Shown: one piece after another, positions 4,763 through 49,754 of the stretch
How positions within the stretch are numbered: position 1 is the first letter of the stretch
Layout of the letters: each line of letters begins with the position of its first letter
From: an uncultured Rhodospirillales bacterium
GTDB lineage: Bacteria; Pseudomonadota; Alphaproteobacteria; Azospirillales; Azospirillaceae
DNA length: 64,000 nt
Assembly: GCA_903920145.1 (NCBI GenBank)
Contig: CAIXKV010000139.1
Location: forward strand, 1-64,000
Direction: 5' to 3'
Program-made: the position numbers and the translations under genes
The notes under the pieces: generated by a model
The model's input: the letters and a program-made list of their open reading frames with translations, nothing else
What the model was told of the DNA's origin: nothing
Databases searched by the model: none

Positions 4763-5298
4763 TTAATTGCACTGTCCAACCGAAGCGGCGGCACAGACTC
4801 GGACACCGTCAACCCAGGTCGCCCCGCCCAGTATAGCGTTGCGCAGATCCGACCGTTCCAGCCGGGCGCCGGTCAGATTGGCATTGTGCAGATTGGCATT
4901 ATCGAACTTAGCACCGCGCAAGTCGGCGCCGCGTAACGACGCCCCGGTGAGATCCGCGCGGGTAAAATCAGCATCCAGCAAACGGGTTCCGTCCAGCACC
5001 GTCCCCAGCATCTTGGCACTGAAGAATTTAGCCCGATAGGCGTCGGCGTTAGCGAGGGTGGCGCCGCTGAGGTCCGAGCGCAGGAAGGTCGCCTCCCGCA
5101 ACTCGGCGCCGCTCAGATCGACCTTGGTCAAATCCCGGTCATCCTGAAGGCAGCGGTGCCAATTCACCTTTGACACCGCGTTGTCGGTGCAGTCGGCATA
5201 AGCCAACGGCACCCCGCCCACCAGAATCACCATCAGGGCGGTGAGCACCGCACGGGGGCCGGCGGTGGACAATACGCGCACCAGCGCCGCCCCCCGCC

Positions 5299-5302
<4 letters not shown>
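4763..5302 (-). CDS. Exported pentapeptide-repeat protein
   Basis: A 179-residue protein with an N-terminal Sec-type signal (arginines, then a hydrophobic stretch ending near ALPLAYA-like residues 30-36). A run of pentapeptide repeats of the A(D/N)LxX type follows from about residue 60 to 160 (for example [27 protein letters not shown]), which should fold as a right-handed quadrilateral beta-helix. Four cysteines lie outside the repeats (two near the mature N terminus, two near the C terminus) and could form disulfides in the periplasm. Its ATG overlaps the ettA stop codon (ATGA), so the two are probably translationally coupled. Molecular role unknown. Confidence 0.85.
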
Positions 5303-11122: not shown

Positions 11123-11500
11123 TTACTCGGTGGTGGCGCTGGTGGTGTCGGTGCTTTTGTTGTAGTGGATATGAATCTTGTTGATTGAGCAGATGTCGAA
11201 CCCGGTCCAAACCGCAGAGCTGCCATCGTCAGCATAAACGACTTTCAGATCCCACTTGCAACCTGGGGTATCACGATGGAAGGTGATGTCAACGCTCTCG
11301 CCGTCATCGAGCACGTCACGTCCCAGGACATCGCTTTCCCAATCGTCACTGGCCGTGGGAGACACGAATACTTTGTCGATCCGATAGCCGGTCTGATTGA
11401 CTAGCGTAAAATCTTGCTTTCCTTCAGCCAGGGCAGCCCCGCCTGGGATAACCAAACCGATCAGCAGAGCGAAAAACGCAGCGGTGAAAATATTTCTCAT
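11123..11500 (-). CDS. Small exported protein of unknown function
   Basis: A 125-residue protein with a clear Sec signal peptide (MRNIF, then a hydrophobic core, cleavage likely after ALA near residue 25). The mature part is beta-rich and contains two cysteines (PGCKWDLKV and FDICSIN) that could pair in the periplasm. ATG at 11500 is preceded by AGAAGAGG, and an upstream in-frame TTG is less likely. It resembles small periplasmic proteins of Rhodospirillaceae and other alphaproteobacteria that I cannot link to a function. It lies convergent to the peroxiredoxin gene. Confidence 0.75.
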   Translation of the reverse strand: MRNIFTAAFFALLIGLVIPGGAALAEGKQDFTLVNQTGYRIDKVFVSPTASDDWESDVLGRDVLDDGESVDITFHRDTPGCKWDLKVVYADDGSSAVWTGFDICSINKIHIHYNKSTDTTSATTE

Positions 11501-11801
11501 AGCCTCTTCTCCCAACTTCTTTCAGATGAAGGCTTCCCGACCAACCAAGTGTCGCGATGGCCACGAACCGACCGACCGCGTCTACACACCCGCTCCCGGC
11601 GATAGCCCGATCGAGTAACCTTCTGTTACATTACGGTAGCACGCGATTGCTTGAAAGCAAATAAAGTGGCGACTGGCATCAATCTGCCTCGTCACCAGCT
11701 CTTCCAAGCCCTATCGGCACAGAACTCTTCCCAATCCCGGCTTAAACAAAGAGGGAGAGTCTTCAACTCCCCCTCCTCATATCCGATCCGATCCGATCCA
11801 A
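11501..11801. other. Gene-free region with a pentamer repeat
   Basis: This 301-nt gap upstream of the small exported protein holds no supported gene. At 11781-11799 there is a simple repeat, atccg x3 plus atcca. Next to it is an imperfect gaggga.../...ccctc inverted repeat (about 11750-11775) that may terminate the hydroxyacid dehydrogenase transcript. Confidence 0.5.
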
Positions 11802-12791
11802 TCAGAGCATTGCTTCCAACACCCGATCCGGCGGCGCGTGGCCATCGGAGAAGGTCTTGATATTAATGATCACCTTTTCGCCCATATCGACCCGGCCTTC
11901 GATGGTGGCCGACCCCATGTGGGGCAACAGCACCACATTGTTAAGGCTCAACAACCTAGGATTGATCGCAGGCTCGTGTTCAAACACATCCAACCCGGCC
12001 CCGGCCAGCTCGCCCCGCTCCAGCATCCGGGTTAAGGCATTCTCGTCGATAATTTCACCGCGCGAAGTGTTAACGATGATGCAATGCGGACGCAGCAATT
12101 GCAGCCGGCGCGCCGACAACAGGTGGAAGGTTCCCGGCGTGTGCGGACAGTTGACCGAGATCATGTCCATCCGCATCAACATCTGGTCGAGGCTCTCCCA
12201 GTAGGTCGCCTCGAGTTCATTTTCGATGTCCAAATGGACACGCCGACGATTGTGATAATGGATCGACAGGCCAAAGCCCCTGGCCCGACGAGCCAACGCC
12301 TGACCAATTCGGCCCAAACCGATCACACCCAACCGCTTGCCCCACAACCGATGGCCAAGCATGGTGGTCGGTCCCCAGCCCTTCCACTCGCCCGCGCGCA
12401 CCTGGCGCTCCCCTTCTCCAAGACGGCGAGCCACCGCCAGAATCAGGGTCATGGCCATATCGGCGGTATCATCGGTCAATACGCCCGGCGTATTGGTAAC
12501 GGTGATCCCCCGCTGCCGAGCGGTTTTCAGGTCGATATGATCAACGCCGGTGCCAAATGACGCGATCAGGCGCAACTGCGGCCCGGCCTGGGACAACACG
12601 CGGGCGTCGATACGATCGGTGACGGTGGGAACCAGCACCTCGGCCACCTTGACCGCTTCGATCAACTCGAGCTGACTCATCGGCGTATCGTCCGGATTGA
12701 GCCGCGTATCGAACAGCTCCATCATCCGGGTCTCGATGACGTCCGGGAGTTTTCGAGTGACCACGACCAGTGTTTTCTTCTTGTCAGGCAT
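11802..12791 (-). CDS. D-isomer-specific 2-hydroxyacid dehydrogenase (glyoxylate/hydroxypyruvate reductase-like)
   Basis: A 329-residue NAD(P)-dependent dehydrogenase that should reduce a 2-keto acid such as glyoxylate or hydroxypyruvate. The Rossmann loop GLGRIGQ is followed by the catalytic residues: Arg in NTSRGE, Glu in DVFEHEP and His in LLPHMGS. The start at 12791 has AGAGGG 7 nt upstream; an ATG at 12821 and longer frame openings lack this. It diverges from the exported SH3 gene with about 127 nt between. Exact substrate uncertain. Confidence 0.9.
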   Translation of the reverse strand: MPDKKKTLVVVTRKLPDVIETRMMELFDTRLNPDDTPMSQLELIEAVKVAEVLVPTVTDRIDARVLSQAGPQLRLIASFGTGVDHIDLKTARQRGITVTNTPGVLTDDTADMAMTLILAVARRLGEGERQVRAGEWKGWGPTTMLGHRLWGKRLGVIGLGRIGQALARRARGFGLSIHYHNRRRVHLDIENELEATYWESLDQMLMRMDMISVNCPHTPGTFHLLSARRLQLLRPHCIIVNTSRGEIIDENALTRMLERGELAGAGLDVFEHEPAINPRLLSLNNVVLLPHMGSATIEGRVDMGEKVIINIKTFSDGHAPPDRVLEAML

Positions 12792-12918
12792 CCGGTAGCC
12801 CTCTGCATTGATGTGCTTCATGCCATACCAAGCGGAGCGCCGCCTTGTCCACAAGCGCGTACCCCCGGCCCGGCTTTGGCGCCAATCACCTTGACCGACA
12901 CCGGCCATCATCCCTTAT

Positions 12919-13566
12919 ATGCCTTCGGCGCAACTCATTGCCATGATCGGACGGAATCAAATGTTGGTCGGTCTCCGCCGCAGGTCCGCCCAGGCCGTCG
13001 GCGCCTGGGTTTTCGCCCTTTCGCTGCTGGCGATACCGCTGGTGATGCCGTCGTTTGCCTGTGCCGAGGGAAACACCGAGCCCCCCGACGAGGCGCCCGC
13101 CCCAGCCGCGCCCTCCGGTGCCTCCCCTCAGACTCAAAGCGCCATCAAGACCAGTGGCCTACCAGTCCCGCGCTTTGTCTCGATCCGCTCCAACGCGGTC
13201 AACGCCCATTCGGGGCCATCGACCAAATACCCGATCGAATGGGTGTTTTCCCGGCGCGGCATGCCGGTGGAAGTGGTGGCCGAGTTCGACACCTGGCGTC
13301 GTATCCGCGATCCCGAGGGCACCGAAGGCTGGGTGCTGCAAGGCATGCTATCAGCCAAACGCTCGATTATCATTACCGGCGCCGTTCGCCCCCTCCGCCG
13401 CGACCCTTCTCTCACCAGCCGCCCGGTGGCCAATGCCGAACCAGGAGTGATTGGCCAACTGCTCCATTGCCATGACAATTGGTGCGAAGTGGACGCGGGC
13501 GGTTATCGGGGCTGGCTCCAGCAAAGCGAGATGTGGGGCGTCTATCCCAACGAGCGACTCGAATAG
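12919..13566 (+). CDS. Exported bacterial SH3-domain protein
   Basis: A 215-residue protein with a signal-anchor or signal peptide (hydrophobic core about residues 28-48), a Pro/Ala-rich linker, and two SH3-like beta-barrel segments from about residue 85. These contain the repeated elements VNAHSGPSTKYPI and the GTEGWVLQGML / YRGWLQQSEMWGV pair typical of the SH3_4 family, which often binds cell wall. Start choice is uncertain (12919, 12943 or 12961, none with a strong binding site). It is divergent from the hydroxyacid dehydrogenase and convergent with comM. Confidence 0.85.
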   Translation: MPSAQLIAMIGRNQMLVGLRRRSAQAVGAWVFALSLLAIPLVMPSFACAEGNTEPPDEAPAPAAPSGASPQTQSAIKTSGLPVPRFVSIRSNAVNAHSGPSTKYPIEWVFSRRGMPVEVVAEFDTWRRIRDPEGTEGWVLQGMLSAKRSIIITGAVRPLRRDPSLTSRPVANAEPGVIGQLLHCHDNWCEVDAGGYRGWLQQSEMWGVYPNERLE

Positions 13567-43099: not shown

Positions 43100-44002
43100 T
43101 CAGCCCCCACCCCCTCCAGCCAACCAGCCCTCGCAGCACGCCTTGGCCAAAGCCCGCACGCGACCGATATAGGCCGCCCGCTCGACCACGCTGATGACCC
43201 CACGCGCATCCAGCAGATTGAACAGATGGCTGGCTTTAATGCACTGATCATAGGCCGGTAGCGCCAATTTCTGCTCAAGCAGAGCTTGGCATTCGCCCTC
43301 GGCATCTTTGAAATGCTGAAGGAGGATGGCGGTATTGGCATGTTCGAAATTGAAGGCCGAATACTCTTTCTCGGCCCGCAGGAAAACATCACCGTAACTT
43401 ACGCCGGCGCCATTAAAATCCAGGTTATAGACATTCTCCACCCCCTGGACATACATGGCCAACCGTTCGAGGCCATAGGTTAATTCGACTGCGACCGGAT
43501 CGCACTCGATGCCGCCCACCTGCTGGAAGTAGGTGAATTGGGTCACTTCCATCCCGTCGCACCAAACCTCCCATCCCAGCCCCCACGCGCCCAAGGTTGG
43601 GCTTTCCCAATCGTCTTCCACGAAGCGGATATCGTGGTGACGGGGATCAATGCCGAGCATGCGCAGGCTGTCCAGATAGAGCGCCTGGCTATCGGGCGGC
43701 GACGGCTTGAGAATCACCTGGAACTGGTAATAATGCTGAAGCCGGTTGGGGTTCTCGCCATAGCGGCCATCCTTGGGCCGCCGGGATGGCTGAACATAGG
43801 CCGCGCGCCAAGGCTGCGGTCCTAGCGCCCGCAAGGTGGTGGCGGGATGAAAGGTTCCCGCGCCCACCTCCATGTCATAGGGCTGGAGCACAACACAGCC
43901 CTGCTCGGCCCAATACGTCTGGAGCTTGAGAATGAGTGCCTGAAAACTCAGAGGACCCATATGTTTGGTCGTCGACCCAGTCGGCGCCATGGCAGTTCCC
44001 AT
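43100..44002 (-). CDS. glyQ: Glycyl-tRNA synthetase alpha subunit
   Basis: A 300-residue class II synthetase catalytic subunit. Family blocks are nearly invariant: [80 protein letters not shown] and [14 protein letters not shown]1 at 44002 and M5 at 43990 are both possible; the latter has GGGAA upstream. It ends in a run of glycines. Upstream lies a T-rich stretch and the divergent cyclase-like gene. Confidence 0.98.
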
Positions 44003-44210
44003 GACTGTTTTTTTTCAGGGGGAACGATACTAGCCCATGCCCCCCGAAGCAAGCGCCACCCGCCGGAGGAAGCGCGGCTGTTCGCCGCCCCTCCCCCTCC
44101 CCGAACGGCCTTGTCTGCGGCAAGGCCAACTTCGTAAAAGGGTGGGCTGGCCGTAATCTTGTCAGCCGTGAGTTCCGCACCCCTGGCCTAATCCACAGAG
44201 ACATTCGACC

Positions 44211-45344
44211 ATGACGCAACCTCGGAACAATCCTTATTTACAGAATGTCTCTAAGAATTATCTGCTCCAGAATTTTAAGGCCGATGAGGCGGTTTCTTTG
44301 AAACGGATCAGCGATACTCTGGAAAATATCCGGGATTGCGGACGAAATACGGTGATTGGCTGGACTCATGACAGCGTTCATGTGGATATTTGCTATGCCC
44401 CAGTTGAGGTCGCCATCAAGGGCTATGAGAAATTCCCGAGAGTTTTCCAAGGAAACCGCTTGATTAGTGCAAAAACCTTTGACGCTATTGCAACCGGCCT
44501 TGATATCCCACGGGTTCGCGTCAAAATGACTGGAACCATTGGAATCGCCCGCTACCATATCAATGTCAATACTCTTAACAACTTAATAAAACGTTATTGC
44601 ATAAGCTATACCGCCAATCGCGCTGTTATTCTTTTCGATATCGTCAAATTCTCCCTAAAATCCCCAACTGAGCAACTCTGTCAGCTTAAGATCTTGGAAT
44701 ATTATATTGATAAAGCCGCCCTTTTGATGGCCAACAATAACATGCCGGTGGATTTGCATCGATCAACCACCGGAGATGGTTACTATATTTGGAATAATAA
44801 TGTCGGATACGAACATAGCATCCGCACTTACATCGCACTGACCCTGATCTTGACCTTGAACGCGGTCAGTGACAGCAGCATTCCCTTGCGCTCGGCCTTC
44901 GCCATTGGCTCACACTTCACTTATCACCATGTCGATACGGTTCCACGCGGCATTGAATATATTGTCGGTGATGTCACCATCAAATTATCAAGAATTGTCA
45001 ATTCCTGTGCCGAGAATCAGCTTTTGATCAGTTGTCAGGTTAATGAAAATGTTGATATTATCGGGTTTATGGCAGATTGCCAGGAATTGATTGATGGAAT
45101 GAGTCAGCTTCGCATTGAAAGTAAATCAATTATTGATATTAGAACCTATCTAACCGGCTATAAAGGTCAAAATGGCTTTGAAGTTCAACATTATTGTATC
45201 ACAGATAAGCATGGATTGGCTCATATTGTCTGTAATATCAAGTTAAATGTCTATTTTTATGGCAATCATTCGGTCAGAATCGGTAAAATGACCCAAGAGC
45301 TTCACGACATGAACCACCTAATCCCGGTCCAAACGCCGGCATGA
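44211..45344 (+). CDS. Divergent class III nucleotide-cyclase-like protein
   Basis: A 377-residue soluble protein, AT-rich compared with its neighbours. The middle resembles a class III adenylate/guanylate cyclase catalytic domain: FDIVKFS with putative metal Asp D143, TTGDGYY with D189, a RSAFAIGSHF strand (228-236) and IVGDVTIKLSR (251-261) followed by the ENQLLIS strand. The transition-state Arg (R261) is retained, but the usual Asn four residues earlier (VNxAxR) is Ile. The N-terminal 130 residues and C-terminal 90 match nothing I recognise. It may make a cyclic nucleotide or be a binding-only relative. No membrane segment. Confidence 0.7.
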   Translation: MTQPRNNPYLQNVSKNYLLQNFKADEAVSLKRISDTLENIRDCGRNTVIGWTHDSVHVDICYAPVEVAIKGYEKFPRVFQGNRLISAKTFDAIATGLDIPRVRVKMTGTIGIARYHINVNTLNNLIKRYCISYTANRAVILFDIVKFSLKSPTEQLCQLKILEYYIDKAALLMANNNMPVDLHRSTTGDGYYIWNNNVGYEHSIRTYIALTLILTLNAVSDSSIPLRSAFAIGSHFTYHHVDTVPRGIEYIVGDVTIKLSRIVNSCAENQLLISCQVNENVDIIGFMADCQELIDGMSQLRIESKSIIDIRTYLTGYKGQNGFEVQHYCITDKHGLAHIVCNIKLNVYFYGNHSVRIGKMTQELHDMNHLIPVQTPA

Positions 45345-45349
45345 TGTCA

Positions 45350-45724
45350 TCACCGGCTTTGCTGTCGGGACGAAGCCGCTGCCCGCACGAAGGCCCGAGC
45401 GGCCTTGGCCACGCTGTCGTCGGCGTGCTGCCCGCAGTATGTCGCCAGCCAATCCCGGACTCCGTTCAGGTCCAGAGTCCCCTTGATGTCGTAAGTTTCG
45501 CCTTCGATAAAATTCACCCCGGTCAAATAGCCGGCCAACCAATCCCCGAACCCGGAATCATCAACCCGATGGTTCCCGTAAGACGCCACATAGTCATCGC
45601 AGTGATACGAGCCATAACCGATCACCTTATAGCGCCCCTGACCATCGGCGCTGAAAGCTGGTGTCGTCGTCATAGCCATCCCGAGCGAAGCCATGACCAC
45701 CACAATGGACGCGTTCTGGATCAT
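45350..45724 (-). CDS. Small exported protein, paralog of the next gene
   Basis: A 124-residue periplasmic protein: Sec signal (cleavage near AFSADG, residue 26), then VIGYGSYHCDDYV, FGDWLAGYLTGVN and a C-terminal WLATYCGQHADDSVAKAARAFV helix. Two cysteines, about 55 residues apart, probably pair. The layout (Cys, a Y/W-L-x-G-Y segment, Cys followed by H-x-D and an Ala-rich helix) recalls the Rap1a/Tai-type or HdeA-like small helical proteins, but only loosely. Its ATG overlaps the stop of the gene at 45721. Last gene of a minus-strand group. Confidence 0.8.
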   Translation of the reverse strand: MIQNASIVVVMASLGMAMTTTPAFSADGQGRYKVIGYGSYHCDDYVASYGNHRVDDSGFGDWLAGYLTGVNFIEGETYDIKGTLDLNGVRDWLATYCGQHADDSVAKAARAFVRAAASSRQQSR

Positions 45725-46080
45725 GGCTCCCTCCGTTGGGATGAGGCCTGGACCTTCACAAACGCCGAAGCTGCCGTGGCCACGCCGTCATTAGGATGGC
45801 TTGAACAATAGCTATAAATCCAGTCCACAACTCCATCCAGATCCTGGTCACCCTTAAGATCATAGACGCCATCATATAACTGATTGATTGCGGTCAAATA
45901 GCCTGCCACCCAATTGGCAACACCGGCATCGATATCTTGGCTGAGACTCGAACAGGCATAGCTGCCATAACCGACAATGGCGTAATCACCATTTCGATCT
46001 CCGGCCCAACCTGCCGCTGGCCCTCCGACCACCAGGGCCATTCCCAGTCCCGCCCTTATTCCCCAATGTCTGGACATCAC
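45721..46080 (-). CDS. Small exported protein, paralog of the previous gene
   Basis: A 119-residue protein with signal peptide (to about AAGWAGD, residue 26). Its mature part parallels the neighbour: IVGYGSYACSSL, VANWVAGYLTAIN, YDLKGDQDLDGVVDWIYSYCSSHPNDGVATAASAFV. Shared features are GYGSY, (D/N)W-x-AGYLT-x-N, YD-x-KG, DL-x-GV-x-DW and YC. The pair is clearly a tandem duplication that has diverged, translated in series through an ATGA overlap. Function unknown; Rap1a/Tai-like immunity is one idea without effector evidence. Confidence 0.8.
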   Translation of the reverse strand: MMSRHWGIRAGLGMALVVGGPAAGWAGDRNGDYAIVGYGSYACSSLSQDIDAGVANWVAGYLTAINQLYDGVYDLKGDQDLDGVVDWIYSYCSSHPNDGVATAASAFVKVQASSQRREP

Positions 46081-47921: not shown

Positions 47922-49754
47922 TCAGCCCAGCCGCTTTGCAGCCATGTGCCGGGGGGCTTGTTTGGCGCCTTTCTTGAGGATGGCAATCGCATCACCCAAA
48001 TCATCCACCGTGACCGTGCGAGCCCCCGCCGGAATTTCGACCAGTGCCGCACTGCATGTCAGTAGCGGGAAATGCTGCGTCACACCATCGCGATTTCGCC
48101 CCACGATGTAACCGCGTTGGCGAGAATCGGCGTCATGGAAACTCTCGACATCCCGCCGGAAGGTCGCCAACAGCGTCTCGACACGATCGCTCACATCATT
48201 CGGCGGCAAATCCCGGAAGCTCGCAAAGAAGTCGTCTCCGCCGATATGGCCGAGGAAAATCTGATTGGCGCTCAGATGACTCCGCATCAGATCGGAAAAG
48301 AGCAGAATCGCCCGATCCCCTTGTCGAAACCCATAGCGATCATTGAACGGTTTAAAATTATCAAGATCAAAATAGACGAAGGTCCAACAGCTATCGACAC
48401 TCTCGAGCGCCGAAACCAGATGATCAGCAATACAACTGTTCCCCGGTAAACGGGTTAAAGGATTCTGATCGCGCGCCAAGGCAAGATTTTTTTCGTTAAT
48501 AACCCTCAACAGTGAGGCGGCGCTGAGGACACCGACATATTTAAATTCATCAACCAGCAAAATTCCCGGAGGATTTGATGCCTGGGAGAAAGTCTCCAAT
48601 ATTTTTTCTGCCTCAGTATTGATATCACAGACGGGACAAGGCCGAATAAAATCCAAAAGCCCTCGATATAACGCCTTATTATGAAGCAAATCTTTTCCAT
48701 ATCGGGAATAAATGACATCTTTTAAATCAAACTCTCGAATAATACCGACTGGCTGGGAACGGTCATCGACAATCGGCAAAAAATCATGGTTCTTTTCGGC
48801 TCGAAAAGCCTGGAATACGGTAGACATCGGATCGCCGACGGACAGCGGGACAACCAGAGACAATTCATCTCTTAATAGCTTCTGATCTCCGCGCCGCTCC
48901 CGCCGCTCCCGCCGGGACGCATCGGCCACCACACTATAAGACCTGTTGAATATCTCTGAAATATCCATAGGCTGACTGACGAAATCACCCTGGACAAGAT
49001 CACAGCCAATTTGTTTGCAGGCTAAGAAATCTTTTTCACAATTAACACCATCTGCAATAACGACAATTCCTAGAACATGAGCTAAATCAACAACAGTCGA
49101 TACGAACAATTTCTTACGCTCATTATCGCCAATTCCCACAATAAAATAGCGATCAATGCGAATAACGTTGGGCTGATATTCATATATAGCCTTCAAGCCT
49201 GCCGTACCGCTGCCAAATCGATCAAGAATAAATAAGCAGGATTGCCTTCGATAGCCGTCTATGACGGATTTAACGGCACGTCCTTCTCGCCCGATTTCCA
49301 CCGATAGCAAATTTTCAGAAACGGCGATGCACAAAGCGGTCGGATTGAGACCAAAATGACTAAAGATATCAACTGTCTGCTCTGAAATATCACCCAGTGA
49401 AAGTTGCATAATATGATCAAGACTGAGCAATAAACGCTCGCCACGCACCGAAAAAGCCGAGAAATCGCGTGCGACCTTCTCGCGCAAGGTCAAAATCGAA
49501 GATGACGCCCCGCCGGCCAAATGGGCGTGGTCATAAAGTGCCGACACGGTTGCAAATCCAAGCCCGCCTTGACCTTGCGGCTGTGCCTCATAGCCAAAAC
49601 AAAGGCCCGAATAGGCGCTTACAATGGGCTGATACGTGAAATGAACCTCACGCCGCACCGCATCCAACAGCGGATCGACACTGCGCCCGGCGAGCATTGG
49701 CCGATCCTTGATAGTCTTCACACTCGTTAACATATCGTTGCCTGGCTCCGCCAT
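47922..49754 (-). CDS. Degenerate EAL - CBS pair - GGDDF signalling protein
   Basis: A 610-residue cytoplasmic protein. The N-terminal EAL-type domain has lost key residues: EAL reads EAQ (56-58), DDFGTG reads LDRFGSG, and AEGVE reads ADGVN, so hydrolysis is unlikely. A pair of CBS domains (about 300-425, with LPIVDDRSQPVGIIREFDLKD) could bind adenosyl ligands. The C-terminal GGDEF domain has GGDDF (505-509) with no RxxD I-site. It resembles regulators that bind rather than make c-di-GMP. An AT-rich middle contrasts with GC-rich ends. It is 72 nt upstream of the oxygenase gene. Confidence 0.88.
   Translation of the reverse strand: MAEPGNDMLTSVKTIKDRPMLAGRSVDPLLDAVRREVHFTYQPIVSAYSGLCFGYEAQPQGQGGLGFATVSALYDHAHLAGGASSSILTLREKVARDFSAFSVRGERLLLSLDHIMQLSLGDISEQTVDIFSHFGLNPTALCIAVSENLLSVEIGREGRAVKSVIDGYRRQSCLFILDRFGSGTAGLKAIYEYQPNVIRIDRYFIVGIGDNERKKLFVSTVVDLAHVLGIVVIADGVNCEKDFLACKQIGCDLVQGDFVSQPMDISEIFNRSYSVVADASRRERRERRGDQKLLRDELSLVVPLSVGDPMSTVFQAFRAEKNHDFLPIVDDRSQPVGIIREFDLKDVIYSRYGKDLLHNKALYRGLLDFIRPCPVCDINTEAEKILETFSQASNPPGILLVDEFKYVGVLSAASLLRVINEKNLALARDQNPLTRLPGNSCIADHLVSALESVDSCWTFVYFDLDNFKPFNDRYGFRQGDRAILLFSDLMRSHLSANQIFLGHIGGDDFFASFRDLPPNDVSDRVETLLATFRRDVESFHDADSRQRGYIVGRNRDGVTQHFPLLTCSAALVEIPAGARTVTVDDLGDAIAILKKGAKQAPRHMAAKRLG

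Follow-up and report, generated by a model that had tools for sequence, protein, structure and literature searches.

The window, that is the whole stretch of 64,000 nucleotides analysed here from an uncultured Rhodospirillales bacterium (Azospirillaceae), carries a gene encoding a divergent class III cyclase-like protein, here P0001, whose frame opens with an ATG and is uninterrupted throughout (Table 1). As the original prediction had described, it is AT-rich and lies divergent from glyQ (43100-44002, minus strand). Its GC content is 42.6% against 58.7% for the window, the lowest of any kilobase there, and the gap to glyQ is 208 bases; this intergenic region presumably holds a promoter. The gene product is a soluble protein of a single chain. 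Orthologues are present in two congeneric genomes (83% and 76% identity to P0001), with the N-terminus identical in placement, and a paralogue (34% identity) is found elsewhere in the source genome beside argB; in two of five congeneric genomes, the single copy present is of this second kind. Synonymous change greatly exceeds non-synonymous change (pS 0.82 versus pN 0.11 from the window gene to L003, and an omega of about 0.05 for L003/L004 with dS near saturation). Congeneric orthologues, a paralogue in the same genome and an excess of synonymous change together argue that this is not a chance reading frame, and the substitution pattern points to a gene maintained under purifying selection.

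Table 1. Features of the cyclase-like locus, with positions in the window. Residue counts refer to 75 family members; the class III register is taken from a profile-profile alignment.
Feature	Positions	Strand	Basis
Divergent class III cyclase-like gene (P0001), 377 aa	44211..45344	+	Open ORF, family of relatives, AF2 model with pLDDT 92
Intergenic region common to the cyclase-like gene and divergent glyQ	44003..44210	.	Coordinates of both ORFs
N-terminal domain, residues 1-128 (long helix 8-41, then small alpha/beta unit)	44211..44594	+	DSSP, conservation
Core segment between N- and C-terminal domains	44595..45035	+	DSSP, PDB fold search, profile alignment
C-terminal domain, residues 276-377 (helix, then antiparallel beta unit)	45036..45341	+	DSSP
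D143, putative first metal-binding Asp, end of strand beta1	44637..44639	+	75/75 conserved, aligned to metal Asp
S185, site of the base-specifying Lys, three residues ahead of the Gly of GD	44763..44765	+	S 55, T 19, A 1 of 75
D189, putative second metal-binding Asp, beta2-beta3 turn (GDG)	44775..44777	+	75/75 conserved
Y250, site of the partner base-specifying residue (Asp/Thr/Cys)	44958..44960	+	Y 61, F 12, D 2 of 75
T256-I257, I257 replacing the ribose-binding Asn	44976..44981	+	T 75/75; I 73 and V 2 of 75
R261, putative transition-state Arg	44991..44993	+	75/75 conserved
D332-K333-H334-G335 ... N342, motif of the C-terminal domain	45204..45236	+	D, K, N 75/75; H, G 74/75

Regarding the distribution of this protein, 358 confirmed sites encoding relatives were recovered with 11 members as query from a collection of 84,980 species genomes, and the Alpha-, Gamma-, Beta- and Zetaproteobacteria are all represented among the best 80 of these 358. 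Among other genomes, profile searches not tied to the motifs detect relatives in 4 of 398 drawn from across the phylum and in 18 of 288 sampled from the Alphaproteobacteria; the family is thus widespread yet patchy. Not one of 75 members matches the Pfam cyclase models, including PF00211, above cut-off, and neither NCBIfam nor PADLOC returned anything convincing for these 75. The match of residues 310-360 to NCBIfam NF011802 (subtilase cytotoxin B-like; E 0.0012) scores 18.6 bits where the cut-off is 257, concerns only 2 of the 75 members and is attributed to chance; DUF5941, TSGA13 and other Pfam matches are under cut-off or single. This sizeable bacterial family is so far unnamed, none of the curated models used giving it a name.

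Fold and active site of the cyclase-like family

The AF2 model built from 75 sequences has a pLDDT of 92.2 and a pTM of 0.88 (0.81 for an earlier model from 11 sequences). By DSSP of this model, the core comprises a strand (132-142), two helices (145-149 and 152-175), two strands (182-187 and 190-195), a helix (200-219), two further strands (228-240 and 248-252) and a final helix (254-264), an order that corresponds in the model to the class III topology. The domains on either side were originally described as unrecognised, and indeed neither has a Pfam match or a known family; in the N-terminal one, the conserved positions are W41 (R in the window protein), G44 and W51. In the PDB fold search, the 50 best matches are all class III adenylyl or guanylyl cyclases, or constructs containing one, with a best E of 2e-8 and a TM normalised to the target of up to 0.68. 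Relative to the query, the normalised TM drops to about 0.35, a low value that is expected if 128 residues at the N-terminus and 100 at the C-terminus are devoid of counterpart. In a viral fold library, nothing closer came up, the named matches that reach significance being cyclase-like or receiver proteins. The unrelated fold that would have contradicted the original prediction did not appear. The GGDEF diguanylate cyclases belong to the same broad palm-type superfamily but differ in that GG[DE]EF is absent here, TGDGYY standing at that place, and that no diguanylate cyclase appears among those 50 matches.

At the sequence level, profile-profile alignment against PF00211-type domains of related genomes (E 0.0019) brings FDIV, GDGFY and GDVTIxLAR in register with the first metal Asp, the second metal Asp and the N/R motifs, respectively. 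The reverse search with the class III set of related genomes retrieved no family member, a PDB sequence search with the 11-sequence profile returned only tags and chance matches, and the same search with 75 sequences gave adenylyl cyclase 9 with the motifs in register at an E of about 1. Taken alone, this sequence relationship appears weak; it is the combination of fold, motif register and family-wide conservation of catalytic residues that supports the class III cyclase-like reading first proposed, and conservation and fold together rule out a chance similarity.

In class III cyclases, the base is read by a pair formed of Lys/Glu and Asp/Thr/Cys, which is variable in bacteria, and the ribose by the Asn of the VNxAxR motif, which is itself not kept in all established members. 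In P0001, D143, D189, I257 and R261 of FDIVKFS, TTGDGYY and GDVTIKLSR were all found in the ORF translation at the positions originally assigned, and in the model D143 and D189 lie where the metal Asp sit in class III enzymes. The replacement of Asn by Ile (I257, codon 44979-44981, plus strand) is real and extends to the whole family, with Ile or Val in 75 of 75 members. This part of the original prediction stands but was incomplete, as it had overlooked that the base-specifying pair is changed too (S185 and Y250), that the C-terminal domain bears an equally invariant D-K-H-G...N motif and that the Asn to Ile exchange had already been described in DUF2652. The cluster formed by D332-K333-H334-G335 and N342 may complete the substrate pocket. 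Members recruited by one search pattern alone still carry the other motif, so that the conservation observed, including that of T256-I257, is not a recruitment bias. In an independent profile-based sample, D189 and R261 are kept in 21 of 21 canonical members and D143 in 20, the exception being L159 with a Gly at this site. Four further copies have lost both D143 and R261 (L174 as well as L165, L166 and L167, the latter three with a long insert ahead of the fourth core strand) and look, from their sequences, like degenerate paralogues or dead offshoots. With the metal Asp and Arg kept where the substrate contacts are replaced, the family appears to be under pressure to retain its catalytic residues.

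Compared with known systems, the family resembles class III enzymes (PF00211; e.g. Rv1625c, Cya2 and mammalian tmAC/sGC) in its predicted fold, the placement of the two metal Asp and the transition-state Arg, but differs by S/T, Y/F and I/V in place of the Lys, Asp/Thr and Asn contacts, by its additional N- and C-terminal domains and by a score below all curated models. Fold, metal Asp and Arg assign it to the class III superfamily; judged by substrate contacts and curated models, it falls outside the canonical membership. In mycobacterial DUF2652 (PF10851) cyclase-like proteins, Asn is likewise replaced by Ile with metal Asp and Arg kept, and cNMP-binding neighbours are reported, but the Lys-Glu pair for the base is retained (PMC4886424), whereas the Lys is absent here. 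The motif of two DUF2652 sequences reads G-x-D-V-I-x-x-x-R, against G-D-V-T-I-x-L-A-R in the present family; profile alignment with these two sequences yielded no useful match, and PF10851 has no match in the cyclase-like family or in the window genome.

Genomic neighbourhood of the cyclase-like genes

The most recurrent neighbour is a pentapeptide-repeat protein of ~400 aa, with two runs of pentapeptide repeats and H..W...G..G-type motifs. Among about 75 loci of the first set, 20 have its gene directly beside that of the cyclase; in the independent sample, this is the case for 13 of the 18 alphaproteobacterial loci that are canonical and full-length. The two sets are not fully independent, since they share at least one genome (L008 and L163 are the same gene). 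The pentapeptide-repeat gene can be upstream on the same strand with short gaps or an overlap, convergent with gaps down to 2 bases or, in two cases, divergent; in L152 its open frame begins 591 bases from the cyclase gene, and in L134 and L159 such a gene is present on either side. The source genome contains seven matches to the pentapeptide protein with E below 1e-30, which among about 4,000 genes leads to an estimated chance adjacency of well under 1% per locus. On the tree, the 20 linked copies require 8 changes versus 17.9 expected for shuffled labels; part of the linkage is vertical inheritance. The window gene is placed beside the pentapeptide-linked clade (SH-aLRT 94), a position that is unsure because of the long branches around it. 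A co-occurrence of the two across relatives was considered and rejected, nearly all Azospirillaceae carrying the pentapeptide protein without the cyclase; it is thus linkage, and not co-occurrence, that constitutes the evidence, and the two proteins are not obligate partners, the pentapeptide protein having an independent role. In one such relative (L138), the pentapeptide gene is flanked by mutL and a phosphoglucose isomerase-like gene, and phosphoglucose isomerase is also encountered among the immediate cyclase neighbours in other loci (three Pfam PGI matches).

Besides, in L054, L067 and L089, the gene immediately preceding that of the cyclase on the same strand encodes a cNMP-binding protein (PF00027, E 1e-20 to 3e-22) consisting of a CNBD only, the likely cyclase start in L067 being at most 10 bases from the end of the cNMP-binding gene; as L054 and L089 are sisters on the tree, from which L067 was left out, this linkage may reflect one event. 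Six gammaproteobacterial copies (L047, L057, L061, L066, L081 and L087) face a convergent gene for an AAA ATPase and FHA domain protein, and in L055 a kinase, HDOD and GAF protein (11137-13521, plus strand) is encoded directly downstream.

Adjoining the window copy, there is no pentapeptide, cNMP-binding or AAA and FHA gene. Elsewhere, the source genome encodes a homologue of the pentapeptide protein (49% identity to the one of L026) and, about a kilobase from it, a cNMP-binding protein; the window itself contains a short pentapeptide-repeat ORF (4763-5302, minus strand; match 4838-5125), some 39 kb away from the cyclase-like gene. At 45350-45724 and 45721-46080 on the minus strand, a tandem pair of small proteins similar to each other is encoded; both probably have a signal peptide, neither has a Pfam match, and they share the pattern W..GYL..N...yD..G..D..gv..W...YC..H..D. 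A few genes away from the cyclase-like gene, an EAL-CBS-GGDEF protein (47922-49754, minus strand) with GGDDF in place of GGDEF is possibly a c-di-GMP sensor or enzyme.

Possible activity, product and partners

Considering these elements, P0001 is best explained as an active class III-type nucleotidyl cyclase, a prediction we regard as reasonably probable, with a specificity that cannot be read from the usual contacts. By analogy with the class III enzymes studied so far, it would form a head-to-tail homodimer in which D143 and D189 of one subunit would hold the two metal ions binding the triphosphate and R261 of the other subunit would stabilise the transition state, the 3'-OH attacking the alpha-phosphate to give a 3',5'-cyclic nucleotide. 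Base and ribose would be read by other residues, candidates being L141, S185, T187, Y192, Y250 and T256, and perhaps also D332-K333-H334/N342 of the C-terminal domain. As the Lys, Asp/Thr and Asn contacts are all replaced, the substrate preference may be broadened or changed. This concerted alteration of three contacts counts against cyclase activity; the absence of the Asn counts for it, being tolerated in established class III cyclases such as Rv1900c, which has a His instead (PMC4886424). In many alphaproteobacteria, the cyclase probably works with the neighbouring pentapeptide-repeat protein and, in some lineages, probably with the cNMP-binding protein, the unlinked state of the window copy counting against such a partnership.

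The same loss of all three canonical contacts would suit a catalytically dead nucleotide sensor, binding nucleotide and metal and signalling by conformation, perhaps to the pentapeptide-repeat protein, and the degenerate paralogues, together with L159, show that copies altered at the catalytic residues exist. The metal Asp pair and the Arg would not both be required in a sensor, yet they are kept in all 75 members and nearly so in the independent set, and clear-cut degenerate copies are exceptional, which implies that the remaining ones are kept for catalysis; the pseudoenzyme alternative originally put forward is thus disfavoured for the window copy and, in our view, unlikely. Nested in the active-cyclase explanation, and differing from it just by naming the product, is an ordinary adenylyl or guanylyl cyclase reading ATP or GTP with other residues, the product being plain cAMP or cGMP. 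Production of cAMP or cGMP remains possible in class III cyclases that deviate at these contacts, Rv1900c is devoid of the Asn (PMC4886424), and the cNMP-binding neighbours have an ordinary-looking phosphate-binding cassette; conversely, the pocket bears no positive sign of purine specificity and the host already possesses five canonical PF00211 cyclases, so that we hold this possibility as a serious one, somewhat short of an even chance.

That P0001 makes cyclic pyrimidines as part of a Pycsar-like anti-phage system appears far less plausible. Pyrimidine cyclases do combine the same metal site with a remodelled base pocket, in which other sets of residues replace the base-specifying ones (PMC11224242), their metal Asp being 44 residues apart compared with 46 here, and EaPycC bears, close to its active site, a C-terminal beta extension reminiscent of the C-terminal beta unit of P0001; the PADLOC PycC model touches 2 of the 75 members, weakly (best E 0.0073). 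P0001 itself has no PADLOC match, however, and its pocket differs from the PycC sets Y50/D94/R97, F100/R142/Q144 and F60/K104/F109 (PMC11224242). Three immediate neighbours in the family match PADLOC PycTIR (best E 1.9e-8) and three, possibly the same ones, match Pfam cNMP_binding, those of L054, L067 and L089 being of the CNBD-only kind; around the copies inspected, none of the neighbouring genes was recognised as a TIR or transmembrane effector. The genes lie among housekeeping genes (glyQ, argB, pgi), and no relative was found in phage and plasmid collections. We hold a Pycsar-like function to be highly improbable.

The interest of this family resides in its size while still unnamed, in the fact that the usual substrate contacts were lost together and in the recurrent pentapeptide-repeat neighbour. 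The Asn to Ile exchange has a published precedent in DUF2652, and the product could well be ordinary cAMP or cGMP. To our knowledge, a pentapeptide-repeat protein would be without precedent as a cyclase partner, and a literature search on the two together found nothing. Retaining class III chemistry with a rebuilt substrate pocket, the family allows the limits of the Lys/Asp/Asn rule to be tested directly, and is a candidate source of an unrecorded nucleotide signal. That it acts outside known phage defence, with a non-cAMP/cGMP product or an unusual substrate and with the two-module pentapeptide-repeat protein as its dedicated partner or receptor, seems quite unlikely at present; if true, such a pentapeptide-partnered cyclase would represent a type of second-messenger circuit that has so far gone undescribed.
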